Assembly: GCF_000730285.1 (NCBI RefSeq)
Contig: NZ_CP007174.1
Span: 2,356,001-2,420,000 of the forward strand
From: Candidatus Nitrososphaera evergladensis SR1
GTDB taxonomy: Archaea; Thermoproteota; Nitrososphaeria; Nitrososphaerales; Nitrososphaeraceae
Direction of reading: 5' to 3'
Length of the DNA: 64,000 nucleotides
The notes below the pieces were generated by a model. That model was not told the DNA's origin, searched no databases, and saw only the letters and a list, made by a program, of their open reading frames with translations. Positions 32,572 through 59,778 of the stretch are shown here, one piece after another. Positions within the stretch are counted from its first letter, which is position 1, and every line of letters starts with the position of its first letter. A program made the translations under genes and the position numbers.

Positions 32572-33525
32572 TTACGCTTTTCTGATGCCGCTAAACGGCG
32601 CATGAAGGATGGTCTTTCTTGCCGCCCTTACGACTTCAAACACCGCGTTGCGCAGCAGGCTTGCCGTGTCTCCAAGCATCCTGACTATAACCCCCGAGTT
32701 GTTCGGGAGGATGCTTGCGCCAAAGTAGAGGTCCTTTGAATAGCCGGCCAGGCCCGAGTTTATCTTGTCATGCAGTTCAGCAACATATTTCGAGGGCGCA
32801 AGCACGTACGTGCTTCCCACGGTATCATAGTTATCCAGCACTCCAAAAGCCTTCATGCTCCGCTTTTTTGGCTCCATGATGGCAACGTCTACAAACCTCA
32901 TGTCGCCGTCCTGGTTTGTGGCCTGGGTCTTCATGTAGCAGATGTCGTAGGCAAACGACTCGCCCCTTGCAACCCTGCCGGGCGTCATTATCTCCGAGTA
33001 CAGCATTGTAGCGCTGTCGTGGACGCGCAGGTTGGCAACCTGGTAGAAACGCGAATCAACATACGGTATTATCTGGTCTGGAATGTACTCAAAATAGCAC
33101 CCTTCCCCAACGTCGACGTTCACTATCTGCGTTGCAAAGTTCTTTTCCATCCTGTAGATCCGCGTGGCTCCCTGCGTGGTAATGTGCGCAAGTGCGTTGT
33201 TGCGAAGCGTGATGTCCATTCTGTACCTGTCGCCCTGCAGGATGCCGCCAGACGGCGATATGATGTAAAGGTACGCCATTGACGGCAGCGCCTCTTCGAG
33301 GTACAGGGCGCGCCCCGTGTAGAGCGGAACCCGGGAGTACTGCTCTTTCACGGAGGTCTTGCCGTTATGCTCGTCCTTTTCCAGCCTCAAGATCAGGCCG
33401 CCGAGCTTGCCGGGGTTTCCCACGCCAAGCTGGTCCAGCTTTGATCCGTACGCCTGCACTTCAGGCGGTATCGCGTCTGGGATATAGTACGCCAGATCGT
33501 TGACGGTAGTTTTTGCCATCATCAA
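32572..33525 (-). CDS. ureD: Urease accessory protein UreD (UreH)
   Basis: This 317-residue protein carries the UreD pattern: ISPSGGILQGDRYRMDITL (about 87-105), ITTQGATRIYRM (about 114-125), YIPDQIIPYVDSRF and SEIMTPGRVARGESFAYD. UreD docks on apo-urease and, with UreF and UreG, delivers nickel. Its ATG overlaps the ureG stop (TGATG). It is the last gene of urease locus 1 and the only ureD in the window, so it must serve both ureases. Confidence 0.93.
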   Translation of the reverse strand: MMMAKTTVNDLAYYIPDAIPPEVQAYGSKLDQLGVGNPGKLGGLILRLEKDEHNGKTSVKEQYSRVPLYTGRALYLEEALPSMAYLYIISPSGGILQGDRYRMDITLRNNALAHITTQGATRIYRMEKNFATQIVNVDVGEGCYFEYIPDQIIPYVDSRFYQVANLRVHDSATMLYSEIMTPGRVARGESFAYDICYMKTQATNQDGDMRFVDVAIMEPKKRSMKAFGVLDNYDTVGSTYVLAPSKYVAELHDKINSGLAGYSKDLYFGASILPNNSGVIVRMLGDTASLLRNAVFEVVRAARKTILHAPFSGIRKA

Positions 33526-34190
33526 ACAGCTGCAGCCTTTGGTGGTGATTCAAACAGGACGTCTCTTATGATGTGATCTGCAACCTGCTGGACGCCCTGG
33601 CCGGACTTGCAGTTGACAAACACGTACGGCTTGCCGCCCCGGATTGCCTTTGCATCGCCTTCCATCACGGCAAGGTCGGCGCCAACGTAGGGAGCAAGGT
33701 CTATCTTGTTTATGACCAAGAGGTCGCAGGTCTCTATCCCAAGCCCCCTCTTTCTCGGATACTTGTCGCCTCCGGACACGTCTATTATATAGATGAAATA
33801 GTCTGCAAGTGCAGGGCTGAAGGTAGTGGTGATGTTGTCTCCGCCGCTTTCAATCAGTATGAGGTCAAGGTAGCCGTGCTTGGACTCCATTTCCTCCACG
33901 ACCGAAATGTTCATCGACGGGTCTTCCCTGACTGCAGTGTGCGGGCATCCGCCCGTTGCCAGCCCTATAACCAGCTCTTCAGGCATCAGGTGCTGCCGGG
34001 TGGCAAGGTTCTTTCGCATCCTGTCTGCGTCTTCACGTGAAATCACGTCGTTTGAAATGATGCCAGCCTTGTACCCCTTTGACGCTAAAATCGGCACCAC
34101 CATCTCTATCAGCATGGTTTTTCCAGATCCGACCGGGCCTCCGATCCCCACCCGCGGAATCCTTTTTGCTGTTGCGGTATTGCTGCTCAT
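33522..34190 (-). CDS. ureG: Urease accessory GTPase UreG
   Basis: This 222-residue GTPase carries Ni to the urease maturation complex. The P-loop is GIGGPVGSGKTMLIE (about 17-31), the metal-binding CPH is in GGCPHTAVREDPSMN (about 79-93), switch residues are in LILIESGGDNITTTFSP, and the base-recognition motif is VINKIDLAPYVGAD. All residues expected for Ni and GTP binding are present. Overlap with ureD and close spacing to ureF show one operon. Confidence 0.96.
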   Translation of the reverse strand: MSSNTATAKRIPRVGIGGPVGSGKTMLIEMVVPILASKGYKAGIISNDVISREDADRMRKNLATRQHLMPEELVIGLATGGCPHTAVREDPSMNISVVEEMESKHGYLDLILIESGGDNITTTFSPALADYFIYIIDVSGGDKYPRKRGLGIETCDLLVINKIDLAPYVGADLAVMEGDAKAIRGGKPYVFVNCKSGQGVQQVADHIIRDVLFESPPKAAAV

Positions 34191-34232
34191 ATGTTTATTC
34201 TATCACTCACTAGCAATTTTAGTGCTCCCGGA

Positions 34233-34934
34233 TCAAGTAATAAACATTTTAGAGGCCATCTTTTCGTGCGACATCTGCACAATGTCGATCTGCGGGGCAA
34301 ACTGCCACATTCCCTCGACTGGCCTGCCTATGTTTTCGTTTACGGTCCTGACTATCACGGGCTTGAGCTCGTCGATAATCTTTTGGCCTTCGAAATGCTG
34401 GAACATGCCAAGCCGAAGAGCCGCTCCCACCATGCCTACTGAAAACGAGTACAGCATGGCAAGCCCTGCCTTCCTCTTTGGGATGGACAGCGCGTTGCAC
34501 GCAACAGCCAGCGCGACAGGGTACGGGCCAAAAGCATGGCCGCTCTTTATCGCCGCGGCGTATTCGTTGAGCACCGTGTTTTCAGTCACGAAAAAGTTTG
34601 TGCACCGAAGCATCTGGGTCCCGGACCTTGCCGAGGCGTTTCTTATCTCCTGGACCAGCTTCATCGAATGCAGGATCTTGTCGACCCGGATGACATTTTG
34701 GACGTCTGACTTAGACGCATATTCGTAGGCGTTGCCAAGCGCCGCGCAGTCTGCCGGGCCCATCTGGTGCTCTATGAATATTTTGACGAGAGCAAAAAGT
34801 TCTGACACTTTGAGTTTCTTGCCGCTGTAAAAGAGCGCTTCAAGCCCGTTTGAGGTCGTGTACATTCCAGTTGGAAAGAACGAGTCGGCAAGCTGCATCA
34901 TGCTCAGGTCCGCAATGTCACTGCTAGTGCTCAT
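34233..34934 (-). CDS. ureF: Urease accessory protein UreF
   Basis: This 233-residue helical protein has the typical start LMQLADSFFPTGMYTTSNGLE-like segment (here MMQLADSFFPTG, about 12-23) and AGVGLGLAP-type helices represented by GHAFGPYPVALAVA. UreF controls UreG GTP hydrolysis and bridges UreD. The ATG at 34934 is favoured because it overlaps the end of ureE by 11 bases; an in-frame ATG at 34961 would lengthen the overlap. Confidence 0.92.
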   Translation of the reverse strand: MSTSSDIADLSMMQLADSFFPTGMYTTSNGLEALFYSGKKLKVSELFALVKIFIEHQMGPADCAALGNAYEYASKSDVQNVIRVDKILHSMKLVQEIRNASARSGTQMLRCTNFFVTENTVLNEYAAAIKSGHAFGPYPVALAVACNALSIPKRKAGLAMLYSFSVGMVGAALRLGMFQHFEGQKIIDELKPVIVRTVNENIGRPVEGMWQFAPQIDIVQMSHEKMASKMFIT

Positions 34935-35448
34935 GTACGTCCATTCCCTCCTCTGGCTCAAACACCATCTTGGCGCTCTTTATTTCCAGGTGCTCGTTCA
35001 TGTGCCCGAAAAGCTTGCGGAACATGTCAAGCTCGCTGTCGGTCTGTATGGGAAAGTAGATCTTGTTGTCCTCAAGCTTGATCGGCCTGTGCAGGTTTCC
35101 GATGGTGTGGCCTATCCTCACGGGCACCTCTATCAGGTCGTCTTTGTGCAGGGTATTTTCCTTGACTTGCACCACTGCAACATTTTCCGGCTCTAGCTCG
35201 ACTACCACCATCATCTTCTTGTCGTCTGTCAAGAGTACCACGTCGCCGTGCCGAAGCCTGCTCCCTGGCGGCAGGGTGATTGCGATGTCCGTGCCCTTGT
35301 CAGAAGTTTTGCGCATCCTTACCCTCTGGGACTCTAGGCGGCTTATCCGTACTGTCTCGCCGGGGATCTGGCGGTATTTTTCCTTCAGCGAATTGTCACG
35401 GTAAATGTTGCCAAGAATGGAAGTTGCAGTAATCATCGCTGTCGTCAT
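34924..35448 (-). CDS. ureE: Urease accessory metallochaperone UreE
   Basis: This 174-residue protein has an N-terminal domain with RISRLESQRVRMRKTSDKGTDIAI and LRHGDVV, then a ferredoxin-like domain with GHTIGNLHRPIKLEDNKIYFP, where the conserved His of the GN.H motif binds Ni. The tail VHEH has two His but lacks the long His-run of bacterial UreE. It gives nickel to UreG. Confidence 0.93.
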   Translation of the reverse strand: MTTAMITATSILGNIYRDNSLKEKYRQIPGETVRISRLESQRVRMRKTSDKGTDIAITLPPGSRLRHGDVVLLTDDKKMMVVVELEPENVAVVQVKENTLHKDDLIEVPVRIGHTIGNLHRPIKLEDNKIYFPIQTDSELDMFRKLFGHMNEHLEIKSAKMVFEPEEGMDVHEH

Positions 35449-35867: not shown

Positions 35868-37442
35868 TCACCTTTTTGTTTCTGTCATTGCCTGCGGGCT
35901 CAGGTCTTCTGCTGCAAGGTTCCTGTCTATGCGCAGGACCGACTTGGCTATCTCGCCGGCGGCCTTTAGCGCCATCGTCTTGACCATGAGCGGGTCTACG
36001 ACCCCGATCTTCCACATGTCCACCGGCTCTCCGGAATTGATGTCGATTCCATAACCGGGCGGAGATGTCTTGGCAGTCATGACCCTTTCAAGGCCGTTAA
36101 AACCCGCGTTGGTAAGTATCTGCCGCATTATGCTTTCAAGCGCGGAGGCCACCACTTCAAGGCCCACCTGCTCAAGCCCCTTGAGCCTTGCGTTTTTTAC
36201 CTTGTCCATTATGTGTAGTTCTGCGGCGCCTCCTCCTGGCACTATGCCCGTGTTAAGGGCTGCTTCGGCTGCGTTTACGCCGTCAATTGCCGCCCGCCAC
36301 CTCTCAAGCGACGTTTCCTTGGTCGTCCCAGAGACAACCATCGTCACCATGTTCTTGCCGGCGCCGCCCTCGATGTATATTATGCTGTTGTCCTCGTCTT
36401 CGTATACCCGCTCGGCCCTGCCCAGGATGTCCTGCCTTTTCAGGTCGTCAGCCACCCTCACGGGCTTGGCGCCGGTGTATCTTGTCAGGTGATCAATTTC
36501 TTCCACAGAGACCCTTGCGGCAAAGACGCCTTTTGCCACGAGCAGGTCCTCGACAGCCTGGTCCACCTCCGGCGACGCGATCAGGACTGCGTTGGTGCCG
36601 GTCTTGAGCATTGCGTCGACCATTTCCCGGGACTTGGCCATCCTGTCGTTTTCCATTAGCAGGATCTCCTGATAGTTCTTGTTCTCCTTTATCCACGATT
36701 CCTTGACGGGCTTTAGGTCCATCTTTGTGATCAGTATCCTTGCGCCCCTTACTTCCTGCGGGATCTCAGGGTCAAGCCTCTTTCGCTCAAGCACTATGCC
36801 ATTGACCACCTGGTCTTCCATGCTGGTCTTGCGAAGCACCATTATAGCCTTGCCAAAGTCGTACTCGCCGTTGTACTTGGCGTTCTCGCCTACTGTACGG
36901 AGGGCGGTGATGACCATCTTGGCAAGCCGGGCGCCGTCCAGTTTTGAAGAGAGCGACGTCGTGACGACGTGCTCCAGTTCCAGGTCGTTGATGGTTATTG
37001 CCTTGGCGTCTTCCTCAAGGAGATGGCAGGCGTGCCTGACGCCGCTTTCAATGCCCTCCACCACCTTGGTCGGGTGGACTCCAAGTTCCTTTATCAGCCT
37101 CTTGCCTTCCTTTATCATCTCTGCAGACATTACCACTGCCGTGGTCGTCCCGTCCCCGACCAGCTGCTCCTGCCTCTCTGCTATCTCTACTATCATCCTT
37201 GCAACAGGGTGGATGGCCTTGAGCGACAGCAAAATTGTGACGCCGTCGTTTGAGACGTGCCTGTTCATCGCCTGGTCTATAAGCAGTTTGTCCAGGCCCT
37301 TTGGGCCCAGGGTAGTCCTCACGCAGTCGGCCACTGCCATGACCGCGCTTGAATTTGACTCCAGAGCGTTGTACTCTACGTGCTCTGCTATTGGACGCCA
37401 GACTCCATAATTAGGTGCAGACATATTGGCTGCCGTTTGCAT
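35868..37442 (-). CDS. Group II chaperonin (thermosome) subunit within the urease operon
   Basis: Read from the ATG at 37442 (TATA-like atacctttat just upstream) this is a 524-residue thermosome subunit; ATGs at 37424 or further upstream are alternatives. ATP-site motifs are TLGPKGLDKLL, NDGVTILL and VGDGTTTAVV, with VPGGGAAELH near the C-terminus. The end is EDLSPQAMTETKR, without the usual GGM repeats. It lies between ureC and the accessory genes. It is divergent from the second thermosome in this window (55456-57165). A dedicated role in folding urease is an inference from position. Confidence 0.9.
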   Translation of the reverse strand: MQTAANMSAPNYGVWRPIAEHVEYNALESNSSAVMAVADCVRTTLGPKGLDKLLIDQAMNRHVSNDGVTILLSLKAIHPVARMIVEIAERQEQLVGDGTTTAVVMSAEMIKEGKRLIKELGVHPTKVVEGIESGVRHACHLLEEDAKAITINDLELEHVVTTSLSSKLDGARLAKMVITALRTVGENAKYNGEYDFGKAIMVLRKTSMEDQVVNGIVLERKRLDPEIPQEVRGARILITKMDLKPVKESWIKENKNYQEILLMENDRMAKSREMVDAMLKTGTNAVLIASPEVDQAVEDLLVAKGVFAARVSVEEIDHLTRYTGAKPVRVADDLKRQDILGRAERVYEDEDNSIIYIEGGAGKNMVTMVVSGTTKETSLERWRAAIDGVNAAEAALNTGIVPGGGAAELHIMDKVKNARLKGLEQVGLEVVASALESIMRQILTNAGFNGLERVMTAKTSPPGYGIDINSGEPVDMWKIGVVDPLMVKTMALKAAGEIAKSVLRIDRNLAAEDLSPQAMTETKR

Positions 37443-37580
37443 TTCGGTCGAGATAAAGGTATATTGCGTTTGTATGCAAAAATTGAGCATTTCGACCAAA
37501 GGATTGAAAAGAAATAGAGAGAGAGAAAGGCAGAGTAGGGGCTGTTATGCCCACCACGCTACTAATTTTCTTTCCTTCTC

Positions 37581-39308
37581 TTAAGCCATAAAGTACCTCT
37601 GCGCCAGCGACAGCTCGTCGGCAGGTCCCACCGTTGCGATCTTGCCGTCCAGCTTGACCTCGTACGTCTCCGGGTCTATGGTTATCTTGGGCGTCTCGTC
37701 GTTCCACATCATGTTCTTCTTGCTGATGTTCCTGCAGTTCTTGACCGGCAGGCATACCTTTTCCAGGCCCAGCTTTTGCGGTACGCCCAGCTCCATTGCC
37801 CTCTTTGACGTAAAGGTGTAGCTCGTCTTGTGGACTGCCTTGCCAAAGGCGCCAAACATCGGCCGGTAGTACACAGGCTCGGGGGTCGGAAGCGACGCAT
37901 TGGGATCGCCCATTATCGACCATGCGATAAAGCCGCCTTTCAGGACCATCTTGGGCTTGGCAGGGAAGAATGCCATTGGATACATCACAATGTCCGCGTA
38001 CTTGCCCACTTCAAGCGATCCAAGGTAGTCAGAGACTCCGTGCGTTATGGCCGGGTTTATGGTGGTCTTGGCGATGTACCTCTTTGCCCTAAAGTTGTCG
38101 TTGTCGCCGGTCTCCTGCGGTAGTCTTCCTTTCATCTTTTTCATCTTGTCTGCAGTCTGCCACGCGCGGATGACGACCTCCCCTATCCTCCCCATCGCCT
38201 GGCTGTCTGACGAATACATGGAAAGCACGCCTTCATCGTGCAGGACGTCTTCTGCGGCGATGGTTTCTGCCCTGATCCTAGAGTCGGCAAACGCGACGTC
38301 TTCGGCGACTGCAGGGTTCAGGTGGTGACAGAACATCAGCATGTCCAGGTGCTCGTCCACGGTGTTCTTGGTGTACGGCCTTGTGGGGTTTGTCGACGAC
38401 GGCAGCGCAAACATTTCTCCGGCTATTTTCATGATGTCCGGCGCATGGCCTCCGCCGGCTCCCTCCGTGTGGTACGTGTGGACCACCCTGCCGTCAATGG
38501 CGTTGATGGTGTCTTCGACGTACGCGCACTCGTTTATAGAGTCGGTGTGGATTGCCACCTGCGTGTCGGTAAGGTCTGCCGCCCTGAGCGAGGCATCCAG
38601 AACTGCCGCAGTGGTGCCCCAGTCCTCGTGATCCTTTAGGCCGCAGGCGCCTGCATCGATCTGCTCAAGCTGGGTCGCAAGCGTCGGGTGCGAATCGTTT
38701 CCCTTGCCCAGAAAGCCCCAGTTCATAGGGGTGTCCTCGACTGCCTCCATCATCCTGCTTATGTTGTACACGCCGGGCGTGCACGTTGTCGCGTTTGTGC
38801 CGTCTGCCGGGCCCGTGCCTCCGCCTATCATGTTGCAGATGCCGCCGCTTATGCCGTCTATGTACTGCTGTGGCGAGATCATGTGTATGTGCGTGTCAAA
38901 GTGGCCGGCTGTGCATATTGTGTGCTCGCCTGCGGTGGCTTCCGTGCAGGCTGACACCACCATGTTCGGGTTTACCCCGTCCATCGTGAGCGGGTTGCCG
39001 GCTTTTCCAACGCCGGCTATCTTGCCGTCTTTGATGCCGATGTCGGCCTTTACTATTCCAAGCACTGGATCTAAAATGACTGCGTTTGTTATGACAAAGT
39101 CCAGGGCGCCATTCTTATTTGTAACGCCGGACGTCTGGGCAAGGCCGTCTCTAAGGGTCTTGCCTCCGCCAAAGACACACTCGTCTCCAGGCGTTATCAG
39201 GTCTTTTTCTATCTGTATCACAAGATCCGTGTCTCCGATCCTCACCTTGTCGCCGGTGGTCGGTCCGAACAGGTCGGTGTATTGTTTGCGGGTTAGTTTC
39301 AGGACCAT
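37581..39308 (-). CDS. ureC: Urease subunit alpha, locus 1
   Basis: This 575-residue catalytic subunit hydrolyses urea to ammonia and carbamate. All nickel ligands are visible: His140 and His142 (DTHIHM), carbamylated Lys225 ([11 protein letters not shown]), His254 (VAIHTD), His280 ([11 protein letters not shown]) and Asp368 (SSDSQAMGR), plus the mobile-flap His of FCHHLNP. The N-terminus [16 protein letters not shown] is normal. Upstream ureB ends 20 bases away. It is full-length and should be active once nickel is loaded by UreDEFG. Confidence 0.97.
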
Positions 39309-39328
39309 GTTGTCATATTCCTCCTATA

Positions 39329-39790
39329 TTATGCTCCGTTAAAGCCCTGCTTCTGGGCTTTTTCGACTGCTGCGCGCATGACCATGCTGGAGTTCAGGCT
39401 TCCCATAGTCAGGCCGTTGAATCCATAGCATACTCGCGCTCCTCCTATCTCGCACAGCTCTACATCTTTGCTGTCTCCCGGCTCAAACCTTATCGAAGTG
39501 CCAGCAGGTATGTTGAGCCTGTAGCCAAACGCCTTTTCCCTTGGGAAGTCAAGTGCCCTGTTTACTTCAAAGAAATGCGTGTGCGAACCTATCTGGCATG
39601 GCCTGTCCCCCTTGTTCTTTACGGTGATTTTTACCGTCTTTCTGTTTGTGTTGCACATCACCGGGTCGGGAGCCAGAATGTATTCACCGGGCATCATTGG
39701 GCTTGATGTAACCTCCTCTTTTTTGGAGACCCGCTGCTGTTGACTTGCTGCCTTTCTTTTTTTTGTTGTTTTACCATTTTTCTTCACCAT
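39329..39790 (-). CDS. ureB: Urease subunit beta, locus 1
   Basis: This 153-residue protein has the beta-subunit core [32 protein letters not shown] and GDSKDVELCEIGG. It carries about 30 extra N-terminal residues rich in Lys, Gln and Ser (KKNGKTTKKRKAASQQQ) that the second UreB lacks. A start inside the frame at MMPGEY would give normal length, so the extension needs protein evidence. It lies between ureA and ureC. Confidence 0.95.
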   Translation of the reverse strand: MVKKNGKTTKKRKAASQQQRVSKKEEVTSSPMMPGEYILAPDPVMCNTNRKTVKITVKNKGDRPCQIGSHTHFFEVNRALDFPREKAFGYRLNIPAGTSIRFEPGDSKDVELCEIGGARVCYGFNGLTMGSLNSSMVMRAAVEKAQKQGFNGA

Positions 39791-39809
39791 TTACCTACAC
39801 TCATCATAA

Positions 39810-40112
39810 TTATTGGACTGGATCATGCACGGTGACCAGCTTTGTGCCGTCCGGAAAAGTTGCCTCCACTTGGACTGTGTGAATCATGTCCGGTACGCCG
39901 GCCATCACGTCGTTTTTCTTCAGTATGGTTCTGGCAGACTGCATCAGCTGTGCGACGGTTTTTCCTTCTCTTGCGCCCTCCACGACATAGTTGGCTATAT
40001 AAGCAACTGTCTCTGGATAATTCAGTTTTATACCTCGCTTTTTCCTTCCTTCAGCGATCTGGGCAGCCGTCCAGATCCACATCTTTTCCATCTCTCTTGG
40101 TGCAAGCATCAT
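39810..40112 (-). CDS. ureA: Urease subunit gamma, locus 1
   Basis: This 100-residue gamma subunit carries [57 protein letters not shown] (listed in parts), the family pattern. Transcription probably begins at a TATA-like gttatttatt on the minus strand (40176-40185), leaving a leader of some 40 bases. It heads the operon ureA-B-C-thermosome-hypothetical-E-F-G-D. Confidence 0.96.
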
Positions 40113-40284: not shown

Positions 40285-40878
40285 TTACTTTTCTACTATC
40301 TTTATTGGAAGGGCGACTCCAAGCCAGAAAGAGACAGACTCGTACAGCCCGTTCTTGTTCACGGGCAGCGTAAAATCATGGATCTTGCCGTCGTCTGTCA
40401 TGATGGTCAAAAAGTTTGACACTATGGCCCGGCCCATCATGTTGGTCACCATCGTTTCCCACCCCTTGCGGAGCGCAAGCTCGCGTATGTCAGAATACCA
40501 GACAAAGTAGTCCAAGTTCTCGTTTTGGAGAAGGTCTTCGGGGGTAAAGTTTGCCTGTTTTCGGATCTTTGAGGCATCGCCTGTATTCTTTTTCATGGTC
40601 AGCAAGTACGGGTACGGCGCAAGACCGGCCACGTACCCAAAGTCGGCAAATTTTGCAAGGAAGCTCTTCCTTGACACGATGACCCGCTCGGTGGTAAAGT
40701 CAAGCGTCAGGTTGTTTGACCAGCCGCCTTTGCTCTCGGAACTCAGCCTCAGTATGACTTCTTCCATGCGGTTTTCCTTGCACCATGCCATGTAGGTCCT
40801 CACCTTTTCCGAGTCGGACATGCCGGGCAATTTTCCCTTGTACCGTTTTTTGAATGCCTCAAAAATTTGCGGGTTCAT
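40285..40878 (-). CDS. Hypothetical protein between urease and urea channel
   Basis: This 197-residue protein is soluble and rich in aromatic and basic residues (FEAFKKRYKGKLPGMS, YLLTMKKNTGDASK, FVWYSDIRELALRKGW, TIMTDDGKIHDFTLPVN). It has no signal peptide or membrane helix and no motif I know. It follows the UT gene on the same strand after 84 bases, and its position between transporter and urease operon suggests a linked role. It may be a lineage-specific gene. Confidence 0.75.
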   Translation of the reverse strand: MNPQIFEAFKKRYKGKLPGMSDSEKVRTYMAWCKENRMEEVILRLSSESKGGWSNNLTLDFTTERVIVSRKSFLAKFADFGYVAGLAPYPYLLTMKKNTGDASKIRKQANFTPEDLLQNENLDYFVWYSDIRELALRKGWETMVTNMMGRAIVSNFLTIMTDDGKIHDFTLPVNKNGLYESVSFWLGVALPIKIVEK

Positions 40879-47594: not shown

Positions 47595-48098
47595 TCATCG
47601 GCCTTGCAATAGCACATAATCGCGTCCAAACACAAAGCCAATCCACATCACCGCGCCCTTTTGGAACACGACTGCCATCTGCGATATAATCTCGCCAGGC
47701 GCAACGTCGCTTTTTCCTTCCTTTTGCGCGAGGGTTATTTCATCAGGCTGCACAAACAGCGGCACCTTTACTTCCGGCAGGCCTTTTCCCTTGCGCATGT
47801 GATTCAACATTTTCAGTACCAGTTCAAGGTCATGCTTGACGTCGGGAAGCAGCAGGTTTTCTTTGTATACAGCAGCAATGTTTGCATTGTTTTTGACTCT
47901 TGTGACCCTAAACACTGCAGGAAGTTTTTTCCACTCGGGATAAAATTCAGCCAACGCGGACACTAGCTCGTCAATTTCGCCTTGAAAGGCCGACAGGTCG
48001 TCTTTGCTTCCGCGCTTTTGCCGCGCGATTATTTTTTTGATCTCGGATTTTACCTGCGAAACGTCGTTGAGCGGCCTGGCGCTGCTAAAGAGCATCAC
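47595..48098 (-). CDS. Hypothetical cytosolic protein
   Basis: This 167-residue protein has an N-terminal helical part (NDVSQVKSEIKKIIARQKRGSKDD) and a C-terminal beta-rich part (AVVFQKGAVMWIGFVFGRDYVLLQ). There is no signal peptide or membrane anchor, and no motif is recognised. Upstream spacing to the next genes is loose. Its reality is supported by length and normal codon use. Confidence 0.7.
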   Translation of the reverse strand: MMLFSSARPLNDVSQVKSEIKKIIARQKRGSKDDLSAFQGEIDELVSALAEFYPEWKKLPAVFRVTRVKNNANIAAVYKENLLLPDVKHDLELVLKMLNHMRKGKGLPEVKVPLFVQPDEITLAQKEGKSDVAPGEIISQMAVVFQKGAVMWIGFVFGRDYVLLQGR

Positions 48099-48559: not shown

Positions 48560-49081
48560 CTACAAGGTCAGCATGCGCTTGGCCTCGCTGACCCTGTCGA
48601 GCAGCTGCCTTAGAAAAACGTCGGCAAACTGGTCAAACGTGAACACGGAATATTTCTGGCGGTACTCTTGCTTGCGCTTTTGGTACTCTTCCTCCAGCCA
48701 CCGGAAATCCGACTCTTTCAGCTTGACGATGAAATTCTGCGACTTGGCCTTTGACTCAAACATGTTGAGCATAAAGTAGCTGGCAAACTGGGTAAAGCTG
48801 TTTGCGCGGTATCGGCGGTTGTATTCCTCTTTGTATTTTTCATAGTTTTCATCAAGCCACGCCTTGACGTCTGACCTGATGGTAAGCGACGTGTAGCGGC
48901 CGCCAAAATCCTCCCTTATGGCGCACGTATCCACTGTGTAATAGCCGCGCTTTATCTCGTTCATCAGGATGATGAGGGCGCTGGGGAGGAACATGCCTGG
49001 ATAGTACTCGTCTGTTATCTGCTGCAGCTTTGCCAGGATGGCCGGCTTTAGGCCTATCGTGGCGTATCCTTGGCTAGGCAT
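48560..49081 (-). CDS. Protein of three tandem ribbon-helix-helix-like units
   Basis: This 173-residue protein shows one pattern three times: a short strand (YATIGLKP, YTSLTIRS, NFIVKLKE), an acidic/aromatic helix (LQQITDEYYPG, WLDENYEKYKEEY, WLEEEYQKRKQEY) and a helix with an aromatic-Gln-Phe/Leu core (LPSALIILMNEI, FTQFASYFMLNMF, FDQFADVFLRQLL). That is the layout of ribbon-helix-helix DNA-binding domains, which normally act as two-chain dimers. The start has a leaderless-type promoter (tatttaac near 49105-49112). No toxin or other partner is next to it. Confidence 0.72.
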   Translation of the reverse strand: MPSQGYATIGLKPAILAKLQQITDEYYPGMFLPSALIILMNEIKRGYYTVDTCAIREDFGGRYTSLTIRSDVKAWLDENYEKYKEEYNRRYRANSFTQFASYFMLNMFESKAKSQNFIVKLKESDFRWLEEEYQKRKQEYRQKYSVFTFDQFADVFLRQLLDRVSEAKRMLTL

Positions 49082-51219: not shown

Positions 51220-51978
51220 ATGCAGGTCAAGAACATCCCTGTCAACATGATAGACATAGCAGAAGAAAACGTCAGAAAGGACCACTCTTTTGGGGAGGAC
51301 GACAAGGACAGGCTCATCAAAGAACATTTGTCAAAGTTTGACCTGCTGCAGCCGGTCGTGGTTCGCTTTGACGACAAGAGCAGGCGCTACAAGCTGCTGA
51401 TAGGGCGCAGGCGCTTTTTTGCGCTCAGCGCCAAGGGCGAGACGCAGATACCGGCGGTCGTCACTGAACTGGAGGGCGCAGAAGCAGAGGCTGCGTCGCT
51501 TTTTGAGAACCTTATTCGCAAGGACCTGTCGCCGCTTGAAAAGGCCAGGATGGTCAAGAGGCTTGTTGACACCACCAAGGCAGGCATCACGGGCGTTGCG
51601 GCAAAGTACGGCCTGCCAAAGAGCACGGTAAGCGAGTGGCTCAGCATATTGTCATTGCCGCAGGTGCTGCAGGACAACATCGAGCAGGGCAGGATAACGT
51701 CGTACGAGGCCATCAGGATAGCAAGAAAGCCAAAGACCGTGCAAGAGAAACTGGTAGCTGCGGCACAGGAGGGCAGGCTGCAGGAAGAGATGGCGCAGGC
51801 AGGCGTAAAGCGCGGGGCGCCAAGGGGTCTGCTGACGATTCGCATCGTGTTTGACCCGAGGAGGAAATCCGACAAGCAGCTGTGGGAAAAGCTCAACGCA
51901 AAGGCAGAGGAGAGCGGCCTTGACGTCACCGACTATGCAAGGAGCATCCTTTCAGGGCACGTGCAGAGAGACACGTAG
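51220..51978 (+). CDS. ParB-like partition protein (second copy)
   Basis: This 252-residue protein has the ParB domain with LSKFDLLQPVVVR and the CTP-binding box LLIGRRRFFAL (GRRR for GHRR), then LFENLIRKDLSPLEKARM and a helix-turn-helix (GVAAKYGLPKSTVSEWLSILSL). The C-terminus differs from the first copy. A strong TATA box lies at 51183-51195 and a GTAGATTAC motif just after it, suggesting autoregulation. The stop codon falls within another copy of the motif. No ParA is seen. Confidence 0.87.
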   Translation: MQVKNIPVNMIDIAEENVRKDHSFGEDDKDRLIKEHLSKFDLLQPVVVRFDDKSRRYKLLIGRRRFFALSAKGETQIPAVVTELEGAEAEAASLFENLIRKDLSPLEKARMVKRLVDTTKAGITGVAAKYGLPKSTVSEWLSILSLPQVLQDNIEQGRITSYEAIRIARKPKTVQEKLVAAAQEGRLQEEMAQAGVKRGAPRGLLTIRIVFDPRRKSDKQLWEKLNAKAEESGLDVTDYARSILSGHVQRDT

Positions 51979-52077: not shown

Positions 52078-53226
52078 ATGGGAATGGAATTCTACGGTGA
52101 TTCGTACAAGGGAAATGACGAGCCGATTTTTGTAGGCATACCAACCTTCCTGAAGCTGCCCTGGCTCAAGAGCAAGGCAGAGCTGGAAAAAGTCAGGCCG
52201 GACGTGGCCATCATAGGAGAGCCGTTTGACTTTGGCACCACCATCCGCCCGGGGGCGAGGTACGGCCCAAGGGCAATCCGCGCGGCCTCGACCGTCCCGT
52301 CCCCGCCGTACGAGCACTTTAACATAGAGACAGGCGTCGACCCGTTTGGCGTGTTCAGGTCTGTAGACTATGGCGACGTCAACATATCGCCCGGTGACGT
52401 GGTAGAGTCGCACAGGCGCATGACGGAGAAGGTCAAGGAAGTGCTTGACATCGACGGCATCCCGGTGATGCTTGGCGGAGATCATTCAATTACGTTTGCC
52501 AACGTGCGCGCCTTTGCAAAAAAGTACAAGAACATCGGCATGATCCACATCGACACCCACGCAGACTGCGCGCCGCAAGGGTTGACGGGCTTCAAGTACG
52601 ACCACGGCGCCCACATCCGCAGGATAATGGAGCTTGGGTGCCTAAAGGGCAAAAACTACACGCTCATCGGCCCGAGGGGTTACTGGCCCGGGCCGGACCT
52701 GTACAAGTGGATGGCCGACCAGGACTTTCAGTGGTTCACGATGCTTGACGTGGAGGAGCTGGGAATAGACAAGATAGCAAAAGAGGCGGCAGACAGGGCA
52801 AACGACAACGTCGACGCAGTCTATATCAGCTGGGACATTGACACGTTTGACCCCGCGTACGCGCCGGGAACAGGCGAGCCGGAGCCAAACGGCCTGACGT
52901 CAAGGGAGGGAATGCGCCTCATGCGCCTGCTTTCGACGTCGTTTGATCCGGACAGGTTTGCGTTTGACCTGGTCGAAGTCGCGCCCAACTATGACGTAAG
53001 CGACGGCAGCTCGTACAACGGAGGCATCACGTCTGGCCTTGCCAACAGGCTCATAGTTGAACTGCTTGCAGGATTGTCGCTGACAAAGAAGGGCAAGACC
53101 GAGGGGAGCCCGGTGAGGCCCAAGTTCTACCGCGGCAAGGGCCACACGTACGACTTTGGCAACGGCCCAAAGGCCAAGGTGCCAAAGAGGCCGCCCTTGG
53201 CCTACGGCCCAAAGATAAAGAGGTAG
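52078..53226 (+). CDS. Arginase/agmatinase-family ureohydrolase
   Basis: This 382-residue enzyme has all metal-binding motifs of the family: GGDHS (about residue 138), HIDTHAD (about 159-165) and SWDIDTFDPAYAPGTGEPEP (about 249-268). It is longer than most agmatinases, having an N-terminal extension (PTFLKLPWLKSKAEL) and a basic Pro-rich tail. Products would be urea and an amine or ammonia. Candidates for the substrate are agmatine, another guanidino acid, or guanidine itself; nickel-dependent guanidine hydrolases belong to this family, and the nickel genes nearby make that option worth testing. It is followed after three bases by a urease-gamma-like gene. Confidence 0.9.
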   Translation: MGMEFYGDSYKGNDEPIFVGIPTFLKLPWLKSKAELEKVRPDVAIIGEPFDFGTTIRPGARYGPRAIRAASTVPSPPYEHFNIETGVDPFGVFRSVDYGDVNISPGDVVESHRRMTEKVKEVLDIDGIPVMLGGDHSITFANVRAFAKKYKNIGMIHIDTHADCAPQGLTGFKYDHGAHIRRIMELGCLKGKNYTLIGPRGYWPGPDLYKWMADQDFQWFTMLDVEELGIDKIAKEAADRANDNVDAVYISWDIDTFDPAYAPGTGEPEPNGLTSREGMRLMRLLSTSFDPDRFAFDLVEVAPNYDVSDGSSYNGGITSGLANRLIVELLAGLSLTKKGKTEGSPVRPKFYRGKGHTYDFGNGPKAKVPKRPPLAYGPKIKR

Positions 53227-53229
53227 CAG

Positions 53230-53628
53230 ATGATCTACATCAAGGCGGTTGCAAAGGGCGAGCCCGACGCGGCTCCCCTTGCCAAGTTTTTTCAATACAT
53301 TGATTCGACTGACGAACTTATCCTGAAGCATTCCATAGAGATGGTAAAGGACAAGATGGACAGGAACTTGAAGCTGAACGTGAACGAGGCGTTTTTGCTG
53401 TACGCGTATTTCGTGGCAACACAGGTGCGCGCCAAGAAAAAGGCGGCCGAGATCGAAAAAGACGCCAATTCGCTCCTTTCCTCGGACCAAGTCATGATAG
53501 GCGTCCCGGAGACTTTACGGACTATTACGTTTGACGCCATAGTCGACGGGAAAAGGGAGTGGATAACTTTGCAAGAGCCCATGTCCGTTTCAAGCTACGT
53601 AATGGCCAACAATTCAAGCGGTAGCTAG
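53230..53628 (+). CDS. Divergent urease gamma (UreA)-like protein coupled to the ureohydrolase
   Basis: This 132-residue protein aligns without gaps to UreA of this window: after the shared LKLN it keeps the same spacing for 68 residues, including GVPE at the same place and TLQEP where UreA has TVHNP. About a quarter of positions are identical to the locus 2 UreA. It has an extra N-terminus of about 30 residues (IYIKAVAKGEPDAAPLAK) and a short tail. It lies three bases after the ureohydrolase, so the two are co-translated. A role as partner or scaffold for the ureohydrolase, or as a modified urease subunit, is inferred. Confidence 0.72.
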   Translation: MIYIKAVAKGEPDAAPLAKFFQYIDSTDELILKHSIEMVKDKMDRNLKLNVNEAFLLYAYFVATQVRAKKKAAEIEKDANSLLSSDQVMIGVPETLRTITFDAIVDGKREWITLQEPMSVSSYVMANNSSGS

Positions 53629-53714: not shown

Positions 53715-54569
53715 TCAGTTGTGCGAGTGGTGCGGGTCGGTCGTCTTGTCTTCTTTTTGCATGATCAAGTCCGCGCGGCCTGCCTTTCTTCGGGCGGCAA
53801 ACGAATAGCCAAACGAGCCGGCTATTATCACGCCTGCCAGCACGGGCCCGGCCAGCTCCGGGATTATCTCTGCGCCGGTGAGGTTCTCGTACGTTGCCAA
53901 TGCGGCAACAGCCATCGCGGCCCCACTCAGGGCGTAGGACATGTACCTGAACCCCTTTGTGTCAAATATACGCGACAGCGCCGAGCGCAGCAGTATGCTG
54001 TCAAGCGTATCCAAGGGGATCATGCCAAGCGCAAAGAACCCTGCAAGGGTCAGGGCCACCTGTACGCCAAGCGTCGCAGACGCCACTGCCGACAGCGTGA
54101 TTGCCGAAATCTGCGTTGCAGTGTCAAAGCCAAGGCCGAATACCATTCCCGTGACAAGCGACGACACGAACGGGTTGTACGAGCCGGTCCTTGCCAGCAC
54201 CTTGCTTGCAAGGATCGCAGAGCCGGTCTTGCCCCATTTTTTCATGGCATAGATGTTTATAGCTCCTATGGTCCCAAGAGCCGCTGCTCCGATGATCCCT
54301 CCCCAGAAAGCCAGCACGTCGGCGCCGGCGATGCCGCCTATGACGAATATGATAAACACCATCTCGGCCAGCACGGATATCATGTGGCCTACGCTAAAGC
54401 CGGCCCCCACCCACCTTGACTTGCGCGATGCGTTGTGAAGCCTTACCATGTTGTCAATAGCGGTAATGTGATCCGCGTCAAGCGCATGGCGCAGGCCGAG
54501 CAACACCATGGTAGGGATAGAGACTGCGACGAACGTTGCAATGTCGCCTTCTACCAATTGCGGCAACAT
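53715..54569 (-). CDS. NiCoT-family nickel/cobalt transporter
   Basis: This 284-residue membrane protein has the signature LGLRHALDADHITAIDN in helix 2 (about 24-40), then GFSVGHMISVL and FGLGFDTATQI. These residues bind Ni or Co in NiCoT permeases. The C-terminus ends HHSHN. The ATG at 54569 lies 14 bases from a strong NikR-type operator. With NikR upstream and ureases on both sides, nickel is the likely ion. Confidence 0.93.
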   Translation of the reverse strand: MLPQLVEGDIATFVAVSIPTMVLLGLRHALDADHITAIDNMVRLHNASRKSRWVGAGFSVGHMISVLAEMVFIIFVIGGIAGADVLAFWGGIIGAAALGTIGAINIYAMKKWGKTGSAILASKVLARTGSYNPFVSSLVTGMVFGLGFDTATQISAITLSAVASATLGVQVALTLAGFFALGMIPLDTLDSILLRSALSRIFDTKGFRYMSYALSGAAMAVAALATYENLTGAEIIPELAGPVLAGVIIAGSFGYSFAARRKAGRADLIMQKEDKTTDPHHSHN

Positions 54570-54754: not shown

Positions 54755-55201
54755 TCAGACGACTGAAACAAAATGCACTTTCAGGCTTTTTATCCCGCGG
54801 CTTTCCGACAGCTTTTTGGCAAGCTCCTTTATCCGCCTTATTTCGCCCCTCACCATCACAGTCTCTAGGCAGTTGTCGTGGTCAAGGTGCAGATGCGTCG
54901 AGGCGCTGATGATGTCGCTGTAATGGTGCTGTACGTGCGTGGACTCGGAATCGTGGTTGTACGCGTGGTTGTCGTACAGCATCATTATTGCGCCTGCGCC
55001 GTTTCGGCTGTCCTCGCCCTTGTCCCAGTCATACTGGGCTATGAACGAGTGCAGGGCGGCCTGTATGGCCTTGGACCTGTCTGAAAACCCGGCCTTCTTC
55101 ATCGACCTGTCAAATTCGGACAGCAGGTCCGGCGAAAGGGACATGCTTATGCGGTCGACGGGCTCTTTTTTCCGGTGGCTGTGCGAATGGCGCTTTGGCA
55201 A
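54755..55201 (-). CDS. nikR: Nickel-responsive regulator NikR
   Basis: This 148-residue protein has an N-terminal ribbon-helix-helix (DRISMSLSPDLLSEFDRSMKKAGFSDRSKAI) and a C-terminal ACT-like domain. The four Ni ligands of NikR are kept with the right spacing: His92 (HHYSD), His103 and His105 (STHLHLDH) and Cys111 (DNCLE). The N-terminus has extra His (HSHSH). It represses nickel uptake when nickel is sufficient; the clear target here is the NiCoT gene just downstream. Confidence 0.93.
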   Translation of the reverse strand: MPKRHSHSHRKKEPVDRISMSLSPDLLSEFDRSMKKAGFSDRSKAIQAALHSFIAQYDWDKGEDSRNGAGAIMMLYDNHAYNHDSESTHVQHHYSDIISASTHLHLDHDNCLETVMVRGEIRRIKELAKKLSESRGIKSLKVHFVSVV

Positions 55202-55302: not shown

Positions 55303-55462
55303 ATGGCGCCCAAGCCGGTTATCGTCAAGCTTGCAAAGAAAAGAGGTAGCAGGGACGGGCGCATACAGCGATGAAAAATACGTCTTTATCAAGATGCCGG
55401 GCAGCATCGATTCTGCAAGGAAGGTTCCAAAAGAAGCTAGAAAAAATAACGTGTCTCAATAG
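55303..55462 (+). pseudogene. Short frame, possibly a frameshifted small gene
   Basis: From the ATG at 55303 (MAPKPVIVKLAKKRG) the frame stops after 23 codons. A +1 shift continues as AYSDEKYVFIKMPGSIDSARK to a TAG at 55460-55462, and this second frame could also begin at TTG 55331. A TATA-like aaatttatt (55267-55275) fits the ATG. Either a sequencing error or a real frameshift could explain it. The product is unknown, and the end overlaps the thermosome. Confidence 0.35.
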
Positions 55463-57165
55463 TAGTGGTGCATCGGGCGCTGCTGCCTGCCCAGCTTGTC
55501 AAAGTGGTCGTGTGCCTGCTTGCCTCCGCGGTGCGAGTGGGTTGTGCCGTCAGAGTGGGTGTGGGTATAGTAGGCAGGCTTGGCCATCACCACGTCATCA
55601 ACGCGCAAGAGCAAGTCGGCAACCTCAGCCGCCGTATTCATTACCTGCTCCTTGACTGCAAGCGGTTCTATGACGCCAAGCGCAAGCATGTCGTCCTGCA
55701 CCCTGCGTGAGAAAGCGTTTACGCCGCACCAGCCTTTTCCGTCCTTGGCGCCGGCAGCGCGCAGCTGAGCCTGTGCGTCAATGACGTCCATGCCGGCGTT
55801 TGCAGCAATTGTCAGCGGGATCTCTTCGAGCGCGTCTGCAAATTTCAGGATTGCAAGCTGCTCCCTGCCCTCCACAGTCCTGGCGCTTTCCCTCACCGCC
55901 CTTGCGGCAAGGGCCTCTGCAGCGCCCCCGCCTGCAACCACTAGGGGACTTGCGACAAAGTCGCGCAAGACGTTTAGCGCGTCAAGGATGGAGCGGTGGA
56001 ACTCGTCAAGCACCTTGGCAGAGCCGGCGCGCAAAAGTATCGTGACAGAGCGGGGGTTTCTGCACTCCTCCACAAAGACCATCCTGTCATCTCCTACAAA
56101 CCTTTCACAGACCCTGCCTGCAAAGCCAAGGTCCGACTGCGAAATGCTGTCAAGGTCCCTCGTTATTTTTGCGCCCGTGGCTTTTTCCAGCCACCACAGG
56201 TCGTTTTCTTTTACCCTGCGTACAGACATGATGCCGGCGTGCGCAAGCATGGTCTGCGCAAGGGTGTTGATGCCCCCGCGCGATATCACTACGTTTGCGC
56301 CCGAATCGATTACGGCTTGCACCTTCTTTCGCAGCTCAAACGCCTGCTCGTCAAGGTATGCCCTGATCTGCGCTGGAATTGTGATCCCTATTTCCGCGTC
56401 GGTGCGCGTGTTCTTTTTGTCAAGGTCGTAATCGATAAGGAGGACTTTGGCGTTTTCAACGGACTTGGGCATGGCCGAGCTGTCGACCGTCTTGTCGATG
56501 ACGACGCCGGCGACAAGCTGCGTGTCTTGTACGCTGCCGGGCTTTTGCTCCACCTTGACGTCGTCGATTTCCACCTTGGCGGATGCAGGGTTGCAAACTG
56601 CCATTATTGCGTCAACCACAAGTTTTGCGATTCGCTCCTTTTCCATGCAGGACGATATAGCCTTTGATTCCATGCACGTCATGGCAAGGCGCTCCATCGT
56701 CTTTCTGTCAGAATTTGTGTACTTTACCGCGTTTGACAAAAGGGCATTCGTCGCAGTGGCAAGGGCCCGGCGGTAGCCGTCAGAAATAGTCGACGGAAGG
56801 ACGCCAAGCTCTAGCAGCTCCTCGGCATTTGCCACAAGAGCGCCTGCAAGGACGACCACCGAAGTCGTTCCGTCGCCCACCGCATTGTCAACCGCGTTTG
56901 AAGCCTCGATGAGCACCTTTGCGGCAGGATGCTCGACATCGATCTTGCGCAAAAGTGTCGCCCCGTCTTTTGTCAGCGTCACCTCGCCCATGATGTCAAC
57001 AAATACCTTGTCCATGCCACAAGGTCCAAGCAGCCCCTTGACCATCTCCGAGATGAGCCTAGCGGCAAGCATGTTGTACCTGCGCGCTTCGCCTCCGCTT
57101 GTCCTTTTTACCCCTTCTCCAAACAGCCGCTGTTGCTGCTGGTTTTTTGTCTGCGCGGCCATCAT
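55456..57165 (-). CDS. Group II chaperonin (thermosome) with histidine-rich tail
   Basis: This 569-residue chaperonin has LLGPCGMDKVFVD, TKDGATLLRK and VGDGTTSVVVLAGAL in the ATP site and VVAGGGAAEALAARA. The last 36 residues contain eight His (THTHSDGTTHSHRGG, AHDH, MHHYY), replacing the GGM tails of ordinary thermosomes. A His-rich tail inside the folding chamber could bind Ni. The gene is divergent from ureABC locus 2 and next to nikR, so a nickel-linked folding role is plausible but not proven. It is a different branch from the urease-operon thermosome at 35868. Confidence 0.9.
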   Translation of the reverse strand: MMAAQTKNQQQQRLFGEGVKRTSGGEARRYNMLAARLISEMVKGLLGPCGMDKVFVDIMGEVTLTKDGATLLRKIDVEHPAAKVLIEASNAVDNAVGDGTTSVVVLAGALVANAEELLELGVLPSTISDGYRRALATATNALLSNAVKYTNSDRKTMERLAMTCMESKAISSCMEKERIAKLVVDAIMAVCNPASAKVEIDDVKVEQKPGSVQDTQLVAGVVIDKTVDSSAMPKSVENAKVLLIDYDLDKKNTRTDAEIGITIPAQIRAYLDEQAFELRKKVQAVIDSGANVVISRGGINTLAQTMLAHAGIMSVRRVKENDLWWLEKATGAKITRDLDSISQSDLGFAGRVCERFVGDDRMVFVEECRNPRSVTILLRAGSAKVLDEFHRSILDALNVLRDFVASPLVVAGGGAAEALAARAVRESARTVEGREQLAILKFADALEEIPLTIAANAGMDVIDAQAQLRAAGAKDGKGWCGVNAFSRRVQDDMLALGVIEPLAVKEQVMNTAAEVADLLLRVDDVVMAKPAYYTHTHSDGTTHSHRGGKQAHDHFDKLGRQQRPMHHYY

Positions 57166-57386: not shown

Positions 57387-57689
57387 ATGATGTTTGCTCC
57401 ACGAGAGATAGACAAGCTGTACATTTTCATGGCGGCAGAGGTGGCGCGAAAAAGGCGTGCAAGGGGACTAAAGCTGAACTACCCGGAGACAGTGGCGCTC
57501 ATTTCCGACCACATTGTAGAAGGGGCGCGCGACGGCAGGTCGGTGCCAGAGCTGATGAGATCGGGCAGGCAGGTGCTTTCAAGGCAGGATGTGCTCCCCG
57601 GCGTTCCAGAGCTTGTCAAGCAGGTGCAGGTGGAGGCGACGTTTGACGACGGCACGAAACTAGTGACCGTGCACAACCCCATAGTGTGA
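57387..57689 (+). CDS. ureA: Urease subunit gamma, locus 2
   Basis: This 100-residue UreA has [38 protein letters not shown] and [21 protein letters not shown] (in parts). The start at 57387, or the ATG at 57390, lies about 27-30 bases after a TATA box, so the message is leaderless. Its stop overlaps the GTG start of ureB (GTGA). Confidence 0.95.
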
Positions 57690-58069
57690 GTGATCTCTTT
57701 CTGATGCCGGGAGAATATTTCATCATTTCAGACAAGCTGGTGATGGCAAACCCCGGCAGGAGAACAACCAGGGTCAGCGTGAGCAACACAGGCAGCAGGC
57801 CGGTGCAGGTTGGCTCGCACACGCACTTTTTCGAGGTAAACAAGGCGCTCTCGTTCCCGCGGGAAAAGGCGTACGGGTTTCACCTGAACATCCCGGCAGG
57901 GACGTCGCTGCGCTTTGAGCCCGGCGATACGCGAGAAGTCGAGCTTGTAGAGTACGGGGGCAGGAAAATAGTGCATGGCTTTTCCGGCCTTGTTAACGGC
58001 AAACTGTCGGCGGCAAAAAAGAAAGAGGCATTGGCAAAAGCAAGGGCAAGGGGGTTTGCGGGCGCCTGA
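57686..58069 (+). CDS. ureB: Urease subunit beta, locus 2
   Basis: This 127-residue protein begins at GTG 57686, overlapping the ureA stop. The core is [45 protein letters not shown] and [13 protein letters not shown]. It lacks the Lys-rich N-terminal extension of the locus 1 copy. Its TGA (58067-58069) overlaps the presumed CTG start of ureC. Confidence 0.95.
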
Positions 58070-59778
58070 CGCTTGAAATCCCGCGCAGGCAGTACGTCGA
58101 CCTGTACGGTCCTACCAAAGGCGACAAGGTGAGGCTTGCGGACACTGACCTGATAATAGAGGTTGAAAGGGACCTGCTTTTTCCCGGCGACGAGCTGATG
58201 TTTGGCGGCGGAAAAAGCGTCCGCGACGGGGCTGGCCAGGCAAGCGGGATAACAAGCAGGCAGGCGCTCGACCTTGTCATAACAAACGCGATAGTGATGG
58301 ACCCGGTGCTTGGAATCGTAAAGGCAGACATCGGGATAAAGAACGGCAAGATAGCTGGAATTGGCAAGGCTGGCAACCCGGACGTCATGGACAACGTCGA
58401 CATGATAGTTTCCTCGGCTACTGAAGTAATCGCCGGCGAGCATACGATATGCACGCCCGGCACGATTGACACGCACATTCACTTTATCTCACCCCAGCAG
58501 GCAACAGAGGCAATATGCGCCGGCACGACTACGATGATAGGCGGAGGCACGGGCCCCGCAGACGGCACAAACGCGACAACGTGCACGCCGGGGCCATGGA
58601 ATATCCACAGGATGCTTGAAGCACTCGACGAGCTCCCGCTGAACTTTGGGCTCCTTGGCAAGGGAAACGACTCGCGCGAGCCGGCGCTCATCGAGCAGAT
58701 AGCGGCTGGCGCCTGCGGGCTGAAACTTCACGAAGATTGGGGCTCTACGCCGGCAGCAATTGACGCCGCGCTCCAAGTCGCAGACAGGACAGACACGCAG
58801 GTGGCAATCCACACCGACACGCTCAACGAGTGCGGCTTTGTGGACGACACGATTGAAGCAATAGCTGGGCGCACCATCCACACGTACCACACGGAGGGAG
58901 CCGGCGGAGGCCATGCGCCGGACATTTTAAAAATTGCCGGCGAGAACAACATACTGCCGTCGTCGACAAACCCGACAAGGCCATTTACCGCAAACACGCT
59001 TGAAGAGCACCTTGACATGATGATGGTGTGCCACCACCTGAACCCCTCGATACCAGAGGATGTTGCGTTTGCTGAATCCCGAATACGCGCCGAGACCATA
59101 GCGGCAGAAGATGTCCTGCACGACATTGGCGCGCTTTCCATGTATTCGTCAGACAGCCAGGCGATGGGCAGGGTGGGAGAGGTCACGTCAAGGGCGTGGC
59201 AGACTGCAGACAAGATGAAAAAGATGGCCGGCAGGCTGAAAGGCGAAAAGGGAAACAACGACAACCTGCGCGCAAAGAGATACCTGGCAAAGCTCACGAT
59301 AAACCCGGCGATAGCCCACGGCATCTCTTCCTACGTCGGCTCGCTTGAAAATGGCAAGATAGCAGACATTGTCATCTGGACGCCGCAGTTCTTTGGGGTA
59401 AAGCCAAAGATGGTGGTAAAGGGAGGGTTTATCGCGTATTCGCTCATGGGCGACCCAAGCGCGTCGATACCGACTCCAGAGCCTGTCTATTACAGGCCGA
59501 TGTTTGGGTCGATGGGCGCGGCAAAATATTCCACGTCGTTTACGTTCACGTCAAAGCTGGCAATCAGAAACGGCGTCCGCAAAAAACTTGGACTGAAGAA
59601 AAAGCTGTTGCCCGTGAAAAACTGCCGCAAAATCGGCAAGCGCGACATGCTGTACAACGACCTTGCGCCAAAGATAGACGTCGACCCAGAGACGTACGAG
59701 GTAAGGGTGGACGGCAAGGTGGCGGCAAGCGAGCCGGCAAAGAGCCTTTCAATGTCAAGACTCTACAACCTCTTTTAG
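58066..59778 (+). CDS. ureC: Urease subunit alpha, locus 2, probable CTG start
   Basis: Read from CTG at 58066 this is a 570-residue catalytic subunit. Nickel-site motifs are all present: [22 protein letters not shown] (Lys), [24 protein letters not shown] and SSDSQAMGR. No ATG, GTG or TTG lies between an in-frame stop at 57994 and the GTG at 58129, which would remove 21 conserved residues ([13 protein letters not shown]). The CTG aligns exactly with Met1 of the locus 1 UreC and overlaps the ureB stop as CTGA. No accessory ure genes follow, so UreDEFG of locus 1 must serve it. Confidence 0.93.

Follow-up and report, generated by a model that had tools for sequence, protein, structure and literature searches.

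A urease gamma-like protein as the likely partner of a ureohydrolase in ammonia-oxidizing archaea

Why should a gene resembling that of the urease gamma subunit (UreA) directly follow a gene encoding a ureohydrolase? The question is raised by a 64,000-nucleotide stretch of DNA (the window) from Candidatus Nitrososphaera evergladensis SR1, whose genome is a single contig of 2.95 Mb. Here a ureohydrolase of 382 residues (UHase; 52078..53226, plus strand) is followed by a UreA-like protein of 132 residues (53230..53628, plus strand). UreA is familiar as a component of urease, and the exclusive, co-translated link of its relative to UHase suggests that a urease subunit has been reused in another nitrogen enzyme. 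The UreA-like protein is most likely the partner protein of the ureohydrolase in many ammonia-oxidizing archaea. No description of such a pair was found in the literature searched, with most subscription journals lying outside that search.

A diverged relative of urease gamma

The initial annotation had read the protein as a divergent UreA, and the profile searches agree. The Pfam family Urease_gamma (PF00547) matched residues 27-117 with an E-value of 1.5e-12 and 48.2 bits, twice the cut-off of 23.9, and no other Pfam family matched even at E 10. The NCBIfam urease-gamma models also matched (E 1e-11 to 1e-12), yet the scores stayed below all of their equivalog cut-offs (45.6 versus 123 bits, and 44.6 versus 82.3 bits), and by so wide a distance that the protein is a homologue of UreA but no ordinary UreA. 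Urease gamma chains in the PDB were matched by phmmer with an E-value of 2e-8. A gapless alignment with UreA over 72 positions had been proposed, and it proved to be even longer: MAFFT placed residues 28-118 on residues 9-99 of UreA in 91 gapless columns, far above chance, and LKLN (47-50), GVPE (91-94) and T113-x-x-x-P117 had the UreA spacing, as claimed. The AlphaFold model, built from a 61-sequence alignment, had a pLDDT of 91 and a pTM of 0.84, and the 18 best PDB matches found with it by Foldseek were all ureases, with a TM-score of about 0.8 on the urease gamma chain. The 132-residue protein is a true, diverged homologue of urease gamma.

Profile match, alignment and fold are shared with UreA, as are the LN..E, GV-P/A-E and PI motifs; the UreA-like proteins retain N50, E53, the V-M-I-G-V-P-E loop and the terminal P-I. 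They differ from UreA at both ends. Ahead of the UreA-aligned part the model has an additional N-terminal beta-hairpin (residues 2-23), whereas the C-terminal hairpin ([15 protein letters not shown]), invariant in the true UreAs of these archaea, has decayed. In those UreAs the hairpin residues Q81, E83-F86 and D88-H96 are 100% invariant. The UreA residues E45, G46 and A47 are also lost, and no conserved histidine or cysteine was found among the UreA-like proteins. The lost urease hairpin and the lack of a conserved His/Cys speak against both a spare urease subunit and a metal carrier; they favour a binding surface that has been put to new use.

On the phylogenetic tree the UreA-like proteins form one clade (support 100/99) apart from 20 true UreAs. 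The protein of locus L070 (genome G175) is an intermediate that branches between the two groups and shares 43% identity with a real UreA. Two label changes are counted on the tree, because the L070 protein was entered under both labels.

Conservation and neighbourhood of the pair

In the window the UHase stop codon (53224-53226) and the start codon of the UreA-like gene (ATG, 53230) are separated by three bases, as had been noted, in the junction TAG-CAG-ATG (53224..53232, plus strand), and the two genes share a reading frame. Elsewhere the contact is mostly closer: in 46 of the 63 junctions the two genes overlap at their stop and start codons, by 1 or 4 bases, which is the signature of translational coupling. 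Natural fusions of the two proteins were absent among the junctions read.

To see how widely the pair occurs, 400 genomes of the class Nitrososphaeria were surveyed. UHase was present in 86 and the UreA-like protein in 73 of them, and every UreA-like match lay directly 3' of UHase (75/75; none elsewhere). A family search gave the same picture: among the loci read, UHase lay immediately upstream of all UreA-like matches below E 1e-20, and also of a more divergent match (L032). The pair occurs in both main families and, in a single genome (G175, locus L070), in an outlying third one. Thus the claims that the UreA-like gene is fixed to a ureohydrolase, and that this neighbour is conserved in related archaea, both stood.

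Thirteen genomes carry UHase and no UreA-like match. Six of them are cut off by a contig end or contain just a partial UHase (G004, G021, G030, G048, G266, G398), in one (G199) the UreA-like gene contains Ns, and six keep UHase and lack the gene, namely three Nitrosocosmicus-like genomes (G014, G015, G016) and G207, G169 and G291. A decayed 5' remnant of the UreA-like gene is visible in G169, and likewise at locus L142. Since the UreA-like gene has been lost in several lineages, the partner is not strictly essential, and in those lineages, at least, UHase is able to function alone. The only UHase residue that changes with partner loss is position 119 (V to I).

The two proteins differ strongly in rate of change. 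Among the proteins of the neighbourhood UHase is the most conserved (80-98% identity across relatives) and the UreA-like protein the least; between the window and L048 the identities are 93% for UHase, 45% for the UreA-like protein, 81% for UreC2 and 78% for UreA2. Recent horizontal transfer was considered as the cause of UHase identities above 90% and was rejected: amino-acid identity is 91-96% in distant comparisons where fourfold sites are saturated, so that the conservation reflects purifying selection. Compared with the nearest complete relative (L005), the UreA-like gene has dN 0.068 and dS 0.50 (dN/dS about 0.14), and UHase dN 0.009 and dS 0.29 (dN/dS about 0.03). The UreA-like protein thus evolves fast but under purifying selection.

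Upstream of the pair lie a ParB-like DNA-binding protein (51220..51978, plus strand), a neighbour conserved in part of the family, and a sodium:solute symporter (SSS2, PF00474; 49159..50682, minus strand), a conserved neighbour that is usually divergent from UHase and a candidate importer of its substrate. Downstream, a NicO-family nickel transporter (53715..54569, minus strand) is convergent with the UreA-like gene, and a NikR-type nickel-responsive regulator follows (54755..55201, minus strand). NicO comes next after the UreA-like gene in 38 of 79 loci, and in most Nitrosopumilaceae-type loci it lies directly 3' on the same strand; NikR is found near the pair in the window and in a few other loci.

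It had been stated that the UreA-like gene is not in a urease operon. As regards the transcript this is correct, but it is misleading about the surroundings, because two urease operons flank the pair: ureC1-ureB1-ureA1 (37581..40112, minus strand) at a distance of about 13 kb, and ureA2-ureB2-ureC2 (57387..59778, plus strand), a likely consumer of urea, about 3.8 kb downstream. The accessory genes ureDGFE (32572-35448, minus strand), a UT urea transporter and a second symporter also belong to the urease cluster of the window. At locus L070, moreover, UHase, the UreA-like gene, NicO, ureA, ureB and ureC follow one another on one strand, so the description "stand-alone" went too far. With its flanking urease sets, nickel genes and urea transporter, the pair lies within a urea and nickel gene neighbourhood, though outside a urease operon.

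The association with urease extends to the whole survey, urease genes being present in 74 of the 86 UHase-positive and 66 of the 314 UHase-negative genomes (Fisher p 9e-29, with genomes treated as unrelated). The former count is too low, since cut urease genes are also present in G065 and G067. These two belong to a genus (g12, G065-G069) in which searches for the Urease_alpha N-terminal domain and for UreA were empty. A UreA-like protein without urease was considered for this genus and dropped after urease genes turned up: UreD in G065 and G069, and UreC in G065 (truncated where the contig ends) and in G067 (a fragment).

The ureohydrolase and its known relatives

UHase is an intact member of the arginase/agmatinase family (PF00491, E 4.5e-80). 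Its six metal ligands (H136, D159, H161, D163, D253, D255) are present, and they are invariant in 71-72 of 72 UHases. No NCBIfam equivalog cut-off is reached. The agmatinase SpeB belongs to the same superfamily, but against the agmatinase model TIGR01230 UHase scores 156 bits with a cut-off of 174. A second ureohydrolase-family gene is found in the same genome (G000:C1:1810685).

UHase is homologous (E 4e-47) to the nickel-dependent guanidine hydrolase GdmH (Synechocystis, 7esr/7oi1; Nitrospira inopinata, 9fek), with linked nickel genes and urea as the expected product as further likenesses. T97 of GdmH, in the GTT motif, is kept as T55. The specificity residue W305 of GdmH, in contrast, aligns with E267 (on an inferred offset of 2 between chain and native numbering), which is kept in 70 of 72 UHases, the haloarchaeal ones included. 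Assignment of UHase as a guanidine hydrolase by sequence was therefore rejected. No match to a guanidine riboswitch was obtained with Rfam in the 48-62 kb part of the window. A further difference is the partner itself, as the passages of PMC11410670 consulted report no UreA-like protein for GdmH. The metformin hydrolase MetCaCb is also a nickel ureohydrolase, and it requires a second protein for activity (PMC11271267), but that protein is another arginase-family member and not of urease fold.

An SSS transporter clustered with an 'agmatinase' was described in soil archaea of the NS-delta clade (PMC11131427), and this 'agmatinase' is probably the UHase of the present pair. Haloarchaea (Haloglomus and Halonotius; L152, L153) have a UHase homologue that is 54-55% identical and has the same PGTGEPEP motif, with an SSS symporter gene nearby and no UreA-like gene. 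The haloarchaeal ureohydrolase and symporter probably represent the older core of the system.

Role of the UreA-like protein

We consider it somewhat more probable than otherwise that an old ureA paralogue now serves the adjacent UHase, instead of urease, as a structural or assembly subunit, and that UHase is probably nickel-dependent with its urea feeding urease. By translational coupling the two proteins would be made together, and the UreA-like protein would most likely bind UHase as a small subunit. Ureohydrolases of this family assemble as trimers, or as hexamers of trimers. In the urease trimer the threefold core consists of three UreA chains (PMC7547064), and with trimeric ureohydrolases this makes a threefold cap or clamp plausible, in which a UreA-like trimer would sit on the UHase trimer. 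A model of a read-through fusion of the two proteins (TAG read as Q) reached a pTM of 0.60 and a pLDDT of 68 and did not place the two confidently together, the UHase half itself being poorly modelled. The nickel dependence is suggested by the linked NicO and NikR genes and by GdmH and MetCaCb. The substrate may be a small guanidino compound that the neighbouring SSS symporter imports, and the urea released from it would be converted to ammonia by the urease of the flanking operons, in line with the co-occurrence of UHase and urease. Against the subunit reading count the losses of the partner with UHase kept, the partnerless haloarchaeal relatives, and the rapid family-wide change of the UreA-like protein, since so conserved an enzyme would seldom have an obligate subunit that evolves at such a rate.

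The same features bear on three other explanations. The nickel-transporter gene directly after the UreA-like gene in many loci, the NikR gene here and in a few others, and the thermosome gene that often neighbours the pair would suit a protein that aids nickel loading or folding of UHase and then leaves, as GhaA/GhaB do for guanidine hydrolase; both GdmH and MetCaCb depend in vivo on nickel chaperones (PMC11271267). On the other hand, the UreA-like protein has neither a conserved metal-binding His/Cys nor a GTPase domain, and UreA is a structural subunit and no metal carrier, which makes such a transient role unlikely, if the least unlikely of the three. Somewhat more doubtful is an adaptor that binds both UHase and urease, where it would take the place of UreA in part of the trimers, and thereby hands urea straight from one enzyme to the other. 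Its appeal lies in the strong association of UHase with urease genes, the UreA features that are kept (the GVPE loop, LN..E and the terminal PI), and the single-strand arrangement of all the genes at L070, but the hairpin invariant in true UreAs is decayed, E45, G46 and A47 are gone, and UHase persists without the UreA-like protein in G014, G015, G016 and G207 although urease genes remain there.

If the UreA-like gene were a relic of ureA, carried along behind UHase and taking no part in its activity, the fast divergence and the several independent losses with decayed remnants would be accounted for. Such a relic we regard as improbable, since the gene is under purifying selection (dN/dS about 0.14), its conserved motifs and start/stop overlaps are maintained, and the 75/75 linkage holds over the two main families and the outlying one.

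Returning to the subunit, a bolder version of that reading is conceivable, though we hold it with distinctly less confidence: a two-protein ureohydrolase in which a urease-subunit paralogue has become integral to an unrelated enzyme that releases urea; this would define a nickel-linked pathway from guanidino compounds to urea in ammonia-oxidizing archaea. If true, it would place a guanidino-to-urea pathway in a guild reported (PMC11410670) to be without guanidine-degradation genes. The pair also points to a probable further supply of ammonia, from a guanidino compound by way of urea, in soil and aquatic nitrifiers of very high abundance. A natural contrast exists between G042 (probably N. viennensis), which has the pair, and G026 (probably N. 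gargensis), from which it is absent.

Some further observations concern the urease genes of the window. The genome has two complete urease structural operons, whose UreC proteins (37581-39308 and 58129-59778) are about 70% identical, and a single accessory set (ureDGFE) was seen within the annotated part of the window. Thermosome (chaperonin) genes adjoin both clusters (35868-37499 and 55456-57165), and in other genomes the latter often recurs as a conserved neighbour of the pair. Several relatives keep, near the urease/UHase region, three proteins without a Pfam match (40285-40878, 47595-48098 and 48560-49081). The ureC2 frame upstream of its first ATG/GTG/TTG (58129) encodes the expected N-terminus of urease alpha ([28 protein letters not shown]), and the start is probably a CTG overlapping the ureB2 stop (CTGA; window 58066-58132, plus strand). 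Antisense to ureC2, the Rfam family 5_ureB_sRNA (RF02514) matched 58221-58507 on the minus strand with 65.7 bits (cut-off 40), a match most likely due to the conserved coding region of urease alpha rather than to an archaeal antisense RNA.
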